Shown piece by piece: positions 36,009 to 38,872 of a DNA stretch of 64,000 bases (positions are counted from its first letter, which is position 1; the number at the start of each line of letters is the position of its first letter). The DNA comes from Bacillus sp. SKDU12 (GTDB lineage: Bacteria; Bacillota; Bacilli; Bacillales; Bacillaceae). The stretch covers positions 372,001 through 436,000 of the forward strand of contig NZ_MSRC01000007.1 in NCBI RefSeq assembly GCF_010093085.1, in the 5' to 3' direction. The notes beneath the pieces were generated by a model. It did no database searches and was not told the origin of the DNA. It was given only the letters and a program-made list of their open reading frames with translations. Made by a program: the position numbers and the translations under genes.

Positions 36009-37361
36009 ATGATCAGAGGAATTTTAATCGCTGTGCTCGGGATTGCAATTGTCGGTACAAGCTACTGGGGATATAAAGAACACCAGGAAAAAGACGCAGT
36101 TCTTCTTCATGCTGAAAATAACTATCAGCGGGCTTTTCATGAACTTACCTATCAGGTGGATCAGCTTCATGACAAAATCGGAACAACACTTGCTATGAAC
36201 AGCAAAAAATCACTATCACCTGCATTGATAGACGTGTGGAGAATTACATCTGAAGCCCATAACAGCGTCAGTCAGCTGCCGCTTACATTAATGCCGTTTA
36301 ATAAAACGGAAGAGCTGTTATCAAAGATCGGGGATTTCAGTTATAAAACATCTGTCAGAGATTTGGATCAAAAGCCGCTTGATAAAAATGAGTATACATC
36401 TCTAAATAAGCTATATCAGCAGTCCGAAGATATACAAAATGAACTTCGGCATGTCCAGCACCTTGTCATGAGCAAAAATCTTCGCTGGATGGACGTAGAG
36501 ATGGCGCTGGCATCTGATAAAAAACAAAGTGATAATACGATTATCAACAGTTTTAAAGCTGTCGAAAAAAATGTGGGTGCATTCTCTACAGGAACAGATC
36601 TTGGGCCAAGCTTCACCAGCACAAAAAAAGAAGAGAAAGGCTTCGGCCATCTGAAGGGAAGACAGATTTCCGTACAGGAAGCAAAACAAATTGCTGAGCG
36701 TTTTGCACCGGATGACAATTATTCCATTAAAGTAGTCAAGAGCGGAAAAAAAACAAATCGCGACGTGTATAGCATCAGCATGAAAGATCCAGACCATAAT
36801 GCGGCGATTTATATGGACATTACGAAAAAGGGCGGGCATCCAGTTTATTTGATTCAAAACAGAGAAGTGAAACAACAGAAAATCAGTTTGAATGACGGAT
36901 CGAACCGTGCACTCGCCTTTTTAAAGAAAAATGGATATGAAACAGATGACTTGGAAATTGATGAAAGTGCTCAATACGATAAAGTTGGTGTCTTTTCATA
37001 TGTTCCTATTGAAAATAAAGTCCGGATGTACCCAGAAGCCATTCGTATGAAAGTAGCCTTGGATGACGGCGAGGTTGTCGGATTTTCAGCAAGAGACTTC
37101 CTGACCGCCCATAGAACAAGAAATATACCTAAGCCTGCTATAACGGAAGCAGAAGCAAAATCTAAATTAAATAAAAATGTACAAGTGAGAGAAACAAGGC
37201 TCGCTTTAATTACAAATGAACTTGGCCAAGAAGTGCTATGCTATGAAATGCTTGGAACAATTGAAAATGACACATTCAGAATGTTTATAAATGCTCAAGA
37301 CGGATCTGAAGAAAAGGTTGAAAAACTTAAAAATGCAGAACCTATATACAAAGACCTATAA
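36009..37361 (+). CDS. ypeB: YpeB, SleB partner protein
   Basis: Stabilises and inhibits SleB in the dormant spore. 450 residues with an uncleaved N-terminal membrane segment (about 2-18), a helical N-domain and three PepSY repeats in the C-terminal half (the third around ITEAEAKSKLNKNVQV). Start ATG 36009 behind GAGGTG. Terminator follows. Confidence 0.95.
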   Translation: MIRGILIAVLGIAIVGTSYWGYKEHQEKDAVLLHAENNYQRAFHELTYQVDQLHDKIGTTLAMNSKKSLSPALIDVWRITSEAHNSVSQLPLTLMPFNKTEELLSKIGDFSYKTSVRDLDQKPLDKNEYTSLNKLYQQSEDIQNELRHVQHLVMSKNLRWMDVEMALASDKKQSDNTIINSFKAVEKNVGAFSTGTDLGPSFTSTKKEEKGFGHLKGRQISVQEAKQIAERFAPDDNYSIKVVKSGKKTNRDVYSISMKDPDHNAAIYMDITKKGGHPVYLIQNREVKQQKISLNDGSNRALAFLKKNGYETDDLEIDESAQYDKVGVFSYVPIENKVRMYPEAIRMKVALDDGEVVGFSARDFLTAHRTRNIPKPAITEAEAKSKLNKNVQVRETRLALITNELGQEVLCYEMLGTIENDTFRMFINAQDGSEEKVEKLKNAEPIYKDL

Positions 37362-37397: not shown

Positions 37398-37489
37398 CAT
37401 TGCATGTTCTCATAAAAAAGAATGTATTCGATAATAGAGATTGTAGAAAATCTATTTTTAGAATACAGAAAATGAGTAAAAGTTGTTAA

Positions 37490-37896
37490 GGGCGAACGGT
37501 GATGTTACATAACGATATGGAAGTAACGGCAAGAAGGCTTCTTATCGTTTTGTAAGCAGCATAAAAGCTAAAGAGAAGGAAAAACTTCAAATGATTTGTC
37601 TTAAAGTGCGCCCTGTGAAATGAAACAAATCCAGCGCATGCAAAAACTGGGCGTGCAAATTCAGCCTGCAAATATAGAAGGGTTTCGCACACTCCTCTAT
37701 CATGTTACTTCAAGTCTTTCTGAAGAAGAGAACATCTATCAAATAGAAACAGAAGCCGTTGTCAGTCGAATCGCTTGACGATCTGAAATCAAGGAAACGC
37801 AAAAGACAAAGGAGTCGCAGTCAGTGACACCGGTTCCCGCTCTAATATTGCGTCCTGCGCCGATTAAATAAGAGAGGAAAGGCAAGGATGGAATAA
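37490..37896 (+). pseudogene. ypfA: Degraded ypfA (motI/dgrA), c-di-GMP receptor remnant
   Basis: No open YpfA frame exists between ypeB and ypfB, but four blocks match my recollection of the 217-residue YpfA in order. 37490-37528 reads GRTVMLHNDMEVT. 37543-37620, in another frame, reads YRFVSSIKAKEKEKLQMICL then VRPVK and a stop. 37620-37778, in the third frame, reads MKQIQRMQKLGVQIQPAN, later EEENIYQIETEAVVSRI and a stop. 37846-37896 reads YCVLRRLNKRGKARME and the native stop. The N-terminal ~45 residues, parts of the PilZ domain and the c-di-GMP-binding RxxxR segment (recalled as RRQYVR) are gone. Several deletions and frameshifts rule out a single sequencing error. Intact YpfA binds MotA when c-di-GMP is high and slows swimming; that control should be absent. 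Confidence 0.88.
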
Positions 37897-37940: not shown

Positions 37941-38120
37941 ATGAAAACATTTGAACGGCTACTGATTAAATTATTGTTCATTCAGGTCATTATTTTATTT
38001 GGTGTACAGATTCTTTTTCACTATGAGCATATTGAGCCTTATGTATCAAAAGTGATTCAATATGAAGGGGTGGATAAAATGGAGGAGAACAACAATAAGA
38101 TAGAAACTTTCAAACATTAA
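37941..38120 (+). CDS. ypfB: YpfB, small membrane protein (DUF5359)
   Basis: 59-residue protein starting [20 protein letters not shown] from ATG 37941 behind GGAGGTG. One TM helix (about 9-26), then a charged tail ([19 protein letters not shown]). It is intact although the ypfA just upstream is destroyed. Function unknown; identity by recall of YpfB. Confidence 0.85.
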
Positions 38121-38197
38121 TATTCATCAATTTTTCACCCTTTTTCCTAAAGTTCGTGATACAATCCATAGAGGAGAAAAGAGCAAGGAGAGGAATT

Positions 38198-38872
38198 ATG
38201 GAAAAGAAATTATCGATTGCAATTGACGGCCCGGCAGCTGCGGGGAAAAGCACTGTTGCCAAAATTGTGGCTGAGAAAAAATCTTACATATATATTGATA
38301 CAGGGGCGATGTATCGGGCGATAACGTACACAGCTTTACAGGAAAACGCTGATCTGACCAATGAAGAAAAAATAGCCGAGCTGTTAAAACAGACGGATAT
38401 TGAACTGATTACAACAAAAGAGGGACAAAAAGTACTCGTTAATGGCACCGATGTAACTGAGGCGATCAGAACAGATGCAGTAAGTAATCAAGTTTCAATA
38501 GCGGCGAAGCATAGAAGCGTCAGAGAAGAAATGGTAAAGCGCCAGCAGCTGCTTGGCGAAAAAGGCGGCGTCGTCATGGATGGACGTGATATCGGGACTC
38601 ATGTGCTTCCAAATGCAGAGGTGAAGATTTTTCTGCTCGCATCTGTAGAAGAGAGAGCGAAGCGCCGTTATGAAGAAAATGTGAAAAAAGGCTACAATGT
38701 TAACTATGAAACATTAATCGAGGAAATTGCAAGAAGGGACAAGCTTGATTCAGAGCGCGAAGTATCTCCGCTGCGAAAAGCAGAAGATGCTCTTGAAATT
38801 GACACGACGTCCCTTTCCATTCAAGAAGTGGCTGATAAGATCCTTGAGGCAGTAGAACAAAAGTCCCGCTGA
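38198..38872 (+). CDS. cmk: Cytidylate kinase
   Basis: Phosphorylates CMP and dCMP. 224 residues from ATG 38198 behind AAGGAGAGG. P-loop [14 protein letters not shown] (8-21), [10 protein letters not shown], and the substrate and lid motifs [22 protein letters not shown] and [13 protein letters not shown]. Confidence 0.97.

Follow-up and report, generated by a model that had tools for sequence, protein, structure and literature searches.

In Bacillus subtilis the c-di-GMP set, as given in two reports (PMC7064775, PMC5422440), consists of DgcK, DgcP, DgcW, PdeH, DgrA, YdaK, and YkuI. The first three are diguanylate cyclases, PdeH is the phosphodiesterase, and the last three are counted as receptors. 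DgrA, also named MotI or YpfA, is a PilZ-domain protein that acts as a clutch on MotA. Swarming is poor in a pdeH mutant except where DgrA/MotI or the production of c-di-GMP has been eliminated (PMC7064775). Inactivation of the B. subtilis cyclase genes, singly or in combination, is described in PMC5422440 as giving no detectable motility or biofilm phenotype, which raises the question of what keeps c-di-GMP in the genus. Natural absence of MotI is not without parallel, because in a survey of 30 B. velezensis strains, in all of which two EAL proteins and three or four GGDEF proteins are listed, no PilZ protein is reported for two, CAU B946 and FZB42 (PMC11357230).

The locus described here lies within a window, the whole stretch of 64,000 nucleotides analyzed, from a 616-kb contig (labelled C25) of the draft genome of Bacillus sp. 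SKDU12 (3.46 Mb, 26 contigs). On the plus strand, ypeB (36009..37361) is an intact ORF of 450 aa having 94–96% amino acid identity to four sister loci (B. inaquosorum, B. spizizenii, B. tequilensis, and Bacillus sp. N13C7), and ypfB (37941..38120, plus strand) is an intact ORF of 59 aa whose homologous sister ORFs have 58 aa; both flanking genes are thus whole, as the original prediction held. The next gene, cmk (38198..38872, plus strand, with an upstream GTG start at 38156 in the ORF list), is likewise intact. Sister loci have an intact YpfA ORF of 220–230 aa, depending on alternative starts, between ypeB and ypfB. The longest plus-strand entry in the ORF list for this interval in SKDU12 has 52 aa, and the minus strand carries ORFs of 68 and 80 aa, the latter extending into ypfB. 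The interval matches ypfA DNA at five sister loci by blastn and can be aligned with six. The matches of 37482–37637 to B. inaquosorum (E 6e-31) and of 37482–37703 to B. spizizenii (E 3e-35) place its identity far beyond chance, and the DNA identity of the locus to these two species is ∼92%. The remnant at 37422..37896 (plus strand), delimited by DNA alignment and profile match, descends from ypfA, as its place between ypeB and ypfB and the homology of its DNA establish; several stops break its frame and leave no usable ORF.

Alignment with B. spizizenii DNA reveals eight deletions in the remnant, of 6, 64, 16, 4, 18, 69, 11, and 1 bp, together with a single 1-bp insertion and no open frame, confirming the original prediction that ypfA is a decayed pseudogene here. 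The N-terminal piece (37422..37475, plus strand) begins with ATG at 37422, runs for 17 codons (MYSIIEIVENLFLEYRK) to a TGA at 37473, and aligns with the sister N-terminus; codons 44–57 survive as well, and tblastn detects a piece at 37490..37528 (plus strand) that is 92% identical to residues 47–59 of B. spizizenii YpfA. The 52-aa ORF (37620..37778, plus strand), the longest on the plus strand of the remnant, spans approximately residues 96–176 with a large internal deletion, and the C-terminal piece (37738..37896, plus strand) ends in the native stop. Pieces of YpfA in the right order but in a broken frame had been recognized earlier, and tblastn and the sister DNA alignment agree with that description, as they do with the stops at 37621 and 37776 and the terminal TAA at 37894, all of which are found where they had been placed. 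Two details need correction: the N-terminal third had been taken as absent, yet 17 readable codons (37422–37472) and codons 44–57 remain, and the surviving length is ∼466 bp of 654, not ∼407 of ∼650.

Both c-di-GMP-binding motifs, RxxxR and (D/N)x(S/A)xxG, are struck by deletions. The 18-bp deletion corresponds to codons 102–108 and removes most of the RxxxR region, in keeping with the earlier statement that this motif is deleted, and the 69-bp deletion corresponds to codons 131–153 and falls within the second motif (NISAGG in sisters), part of which is gone. A search of the whole 64-kb window for RxxxR motif DNA, using a degenerate pattern that fits only three of five sister loci exactly and allowing up to two mismatches, gave no match. 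The single open frame of ∼217 aa with PilZNR and PilZ domains that characterizes YpfA/MotI is no longer present; for comparison, a sister YpfA scores 59.8 bits for PilZNR and 50.9 bits for PilZ.

Lineage-specific changes were counted by codon position at sites that are identical in four sister species but different in the window. The remnant has 25/128, 27/141, and 19/106 changes at positions 1, 2, and 3, respectively, for a total of 71 substitutions at 375 conserved sites (∼19%, a figure that misalignment beside gaps could raise somewhat). The same counting gives 7/429, 4/445, and 35/313 for ypeB, and in nine neighboring genes 137 of 766 four-fold sites have changed versus 81 of 5606 sites at positions 1 and 2. 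The pattern in the remnant is that of a pseudogene with no purifying selection after loss of the frame. Because its change is equal across codon positions and equal to the four-fold rate, the gene must have died early on the branch, and it has been unconstrained for about as long as the lineage has been separate from the four sister species. Judged from this decay, ypfA/motI is an old null allele in a lineage of the B. subtilis group close to B. spizizenii and B. inaquosorum. No conspecific genome was found among 44 genus genomes, the nearest having ∼92% DNA identity, and fixation of the loss in the species is suggested by the age of the decay in the one genome representing the lineage.

The same figures bear on two ways in which the gene might be less dead than it appears. 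That ypfA is really intact and the lesions are errors of sequencing or assembly is scarcely credible: the assembly is a draft of 26 contigs, but one or two sequencing errors do not account for nine indels relative to B. spizizenii in addition to substitutions spread evenly over codon positions, and the intact flanks lie in one 616-kb contig. It is also very improbable that the 52-aa ORF at 37620–37778, which starts with ATG and retains fragments of YpfA, is expressed as a shortened product with some function, since it has no match in Pfam or NCBIfam, both binding motifs are struck by deletions, and the remnant as a whole shows no constraint.

The Pfam PilZ model has no match in the SKDU12 genome and matches in 57 of 61 genomes, SKDU12 being one of the 61. 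Because this model missed an intact YpfA (0 matches in G033, a genome with a B. atrophaeus contig, where the gene lies on C18), the search was repeated with a 17-row YpfA profile, which gave a full-length match in 41 of 44 genus genomes and in SKDU12 found the remnant only (E 4e-4). An intact copy of ypfA elsewhere in the 3.46-Mb genome and a second PilZ protein replacing it were rejected, neither search having found one. As the B. atrophaeus case illustrates, PilZ counts by the Pfam model alone can undercount receptors in this genus. In two of the 44 genus genomes (G023, on its contig C25, and G062, at C1:405507-406146) ypfA is split in two by a frameshift; the frame is interrupted as in SKDU12, but the gene is nearly full length in two pieces, which indicates either recent loss or an assembly error. 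Among 80 loci around ypeB, a YpfA ORF is found nearby in 66, in one of which (L071) it has only 128 aa. The 14 loci lacking one nearby include seven of the B. licheniformis group and its kin (L039–L045) and two cut by contig ends. In the B. licheniformis kind ypfA is absent between ypeB and ypfB and a full-length copy occurs elsewhere in the genus genomes, indicating that the gene has moved.

Loss of motI is accompanied by the loss of most other members of the network. B. spizizenii TU-B-10 (G012) served as the reference for gene loss, and network genes were named from their domains (architectures GGDEF with 5TM-LYT, MHYT-GGDEF-EAL, HDOD-EAL, and GGDEF alone), lengths, and positions and from the published B. 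subtilis set (PMC7064775, PMC5422440). At E ≤ 0.001 a single GGDEF place and a single EAL place are found in SKDU12, and 22 other same-genus genomes have two to four of each; the seven of these nearest to the window (G004, G005, G007, G010, G012, G015, and G020) all have four GGDEF, three or four EAL, and one PilZ. At E ≤ 10 there is still one GGDEF place, and a second EAL place appears that is below threshold (18.1 bits) and of a kind found in four sisters too. Five of the seven network proteins are gone, namely DgcK, DgcW, PdeH, YdaK (with its operon), and MotI, leaving DgcP and YkuI. The diguanylate cyclase set has therefore changed, DgcP alone being present after loss of DgcK and DgcW; PdeH exists as a remnant only; YkuI alone represents the receptors DgrA, YdaK, and YkuI; and no EAL protein other than YkuI, which is called inactive in PMC5422440, was found above the Pfam cut-off in the genome.

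These losses differ in form. For dgcK (359 aa), positions 1095912-1096897 of the G012 reference are replaced by ∼106 bp between two intact neighbors in one contig, and the leftover is limited to ∼25 diverged C-terminal residues. For dgcW, ∼2,504 bp are replaced by ∼86 bp, with both flanks in one contig, and no dgcW remnant was found in the SKDU12 genome. The ydaJKLMN operon was removed by a single deletion of ∼9.4 kb, flanked on both sides within one contig, in which six ORFs are missing, including YdaK and a 607-aa transporter. The deletion point is at C10:73295-73297; the adjoining 607-aa transporter, the gene for which went with the operon, is presumably KimA. What is left of pdeH is a remnant with many indels (C8:70213-70810), of which four pieces are recognizable at C8:70213-70792. 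The sequence thus bears out the original prediction that motility control lacks its MotI arm, but that prediction was too narrow, since most of the network is lost as well. Taken together, the loss of motI is very probably one piece of a near-complete dismantling of c-di-GMP signaling.

A competing explanation, which we place somewhat short of an even chance, is that the c-di-GMP genes disappeared at the same pace as other accessory genes, independently of each other, as a neutral by-product of genome shrinkage. The genome is indeed small, 3.46 Mb versus 4.21 Mb in a sister, and in 400 kb of contig C21, 38 of 377 ORFs are flagged as lost or broken. Among the flagged ORFs are some that we take to be sugar-acid, ABC-transporter, and regulator genes unrelated to c-di-GMP. 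At such rates, however, loss of at least four of the other six network proteins would be rare: the probability is 0.0005 at 0.079 per gene (29/368, obtained from 38/377 by removing by eye two edge, five doubtful, and two prophage ORFs), 0.0013 at the raw rate of 0.10, and 0.012 at the rate of 0.18 derived from genome size. These figures are support and not proof, because the set was picked after the motI loss was known, dgcW is one of the 29, any loss hidden by a matching paralogue would be undercounted, and regulators may be lost faster than the average gene. Against a simple effect of size, two small same-genus genomes (G021 and G008, 3.3 and 3.5 Mb) keep two GGDEF, two or three EAL, and one PilZ, and the flagellar, eps, and tasA loci examined in SKDU12 are kept despite the shrinkage. 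Given the general shrinkage, part of the c-di-GMP loss pattern may still be chance.

On the scale of the window, 77 reference ORFs of B. spizizenii were compared, of which 63 are intact, five are broken, and nine are missing. Eight of the missing ones are truncated at the window edges or fall outside them; the ninth is a 116-aa sister ORF within ∼825 bp of B. spizizenii DNA missing near 1934-1943, where both flanks match. Four of the five broken ORFs have their DNA in place and are judged to be doubtful ORFs or differences in start site; the fifth is ypfA. The earlier description of the ypfA loss as specific is thus mostly right locally, this being the only clear broken gene against 63 intact ORFs of the window, but not genome-wide, where four further members of the seven-protein network are lost as well. 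Elsewhere in the genome, a block of six ORFs (a large enzyme, transport genes, and a regulator), which we take to serve galactan use, is missing beside the intact eps region (C22:5722-6026 versus G012:3460936-3468952), and a 152-aa gene in pieces at C21:186260-186664, presumably stoA, is a further accessory gene undergoing decay.

The two surviving network proteins have different histories. DgcP has 577 aa, is 88% identical to its sister, and has GGEEL as in the sister; its pairwise dN/dS of 0.13–0.17, versus 0.10–0.14 among sisters, indicates a gene that is kept, under constraint that is perhaps slightly relaxed. YkuI is intact (406 aa). At the DNA level ykuI shares 97% identity with G002, a genome that carries a B. 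siamensis contig, 96% with G013, and 78% with the sister; among the 326 genes of the 400-kb stretch that align across more than 80% of their length, none is more diverged. By these identities, a segment of ∼2.4 kb (C21:174740-177134) that covers ykuI and the region upstream of it was imported from the B. siamensis/velezensis group. As the sole survivor of the published receptor set and an imported, unusually diverged gene, YkuI might be suspected of having replaced MotI, so that c-di-GMP would now control motility through it or through another receptor. We consider this quite improbable: the import may be chance recombination, and we know of no published role of YkuI in stopping flagella. In PMC9800504 the role of YkuI is called unclear and zinc homeostasis is mentioned. 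A further proposal, also unlikely, is a circuit of two proteins in which DgcP under purifying selection feeds a foreign allele of the receptor YkuI, an EAL phosphodiesterase is lacking, and neither flagella nor the Yda exopolysaccharide are connected to the messenger. If it were true, the orphan receptor YkuI would have a job independent of motility that alone keeps c-di-GMP alive, and this genome would isolate it.

Genes for swimming and for the main matrix components are present. FliG is intact, as are 43 of 46 ORFs of the fla/che block (of the remaining three, two are truncated at the end of the stretch or fall past it, and one is a doubtful 88-aa ORF); MotA and MotB exceed their NCBIfam cut-offs, and flagellin is encoded by an intact 302-aa ORF. 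Rotor, stator, and filament genes are thus all represented by intact loci, and on the evidence of the flagellar and stator loci examined, non-motility was rejected as a trivial cause of the motI loss. Two partial flagellin genes lie at contig ends (C9:359412-359624 and C11:25709-25912), and the repetition of flagellin copies is the probable cause of these breaks in the assembly. The eps block is intact, EpsE scoring 509.6 bits against a cut-off of 450, and tapA-sipW-tasA is intact, with TapA, SipW, and TasA above their NCBIfam cut-offs; a broader loss of matrix genes was rejected accordingly. An ORF at C25:251435-251803 has HTH_3 and SinI-type domains and no NCBIfam model above cut-off, and from its position we take it to be SinR. 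EpsE is a flagellar clutch, and since this second clutch is retained, motility control as such is apparently not lost.

We read the SKDU12 sequence as that of a lineage in which the c-di-GMP brake has collapsed while the genes to swim are still held. DgcP would still be able to make c-di-GMP. The MotI clutch would be unable to act on MotA, and the YdaK exopolysaccharide system could not be switched on. Swimming would then no longer be stopped by c-di-GMP, and any stop would come through the SinR/EpsE route. In a motile cell with DgcP present, a dead motI would keep the motor free and make the loss of pdeH tolerable, as may be expected from the pdeH mutant genetics set out in PMC7064775. If loss of motI permits loss of pdeH, motI is predicted to have been lost before or together with pdeH. 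In comparisons with the same four relatives, 67 of 383 sites have changed in motI versus 51 of 385 in the well-aligned bins of pdeH, from which the poorly aligned codons 120–179 (66/143) are excluded; all aligned bins of pdeH together give 117/528. The count of 51/385 leans toward motI first but is not significant, and that of 117/528 points the opposite way, so that the two counts disagree on the order.

If motI was lost as part of such a dismantling, SKDU12 would be a natural test of the purpose of c-di-GMP, with most of the system gone and the flagellar loci examined, EpsE, and the main matrix genes kept. Two Bacillus ways of stopping swimming would thereby be separated, which suggests that a cell retaining EpsE can do without the MotI brake, and the natural case would match an epistasis known from the laboratory, in which cells without the receptor tolerate loss of the phosphodiesterase. 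DgcP and YkuI are left as the smallest surviving pair, and their function can be studied with the other network members out of the way.

Decay of genes is familiar in itself; the loss of the c-di-GMP network here is unusually complete, and no report of a flagellated Bacillus with a comparable network loss was found in the open-licence literature. Relative to MotI/DgrA of B. subtilis, SKDU12 has the same locus, ordered pieces of the gene, and the same C-terminal end, but the frame is not open, both binding motifs are damaged, and the sequence evolves neutrally. Relative to the B. subtilis c-di-GMP network, DgcP and YkuI are shared, but DgcK, DgcW, PdeH, YdaK(JLMN), and DgrA are not. The B. velezensis strains CAU B946 and FZB42 likewise represent natural loss or non-detection of the receptor, but in SKDU12 the network itself is down to one GGDEF and one EAL protein.
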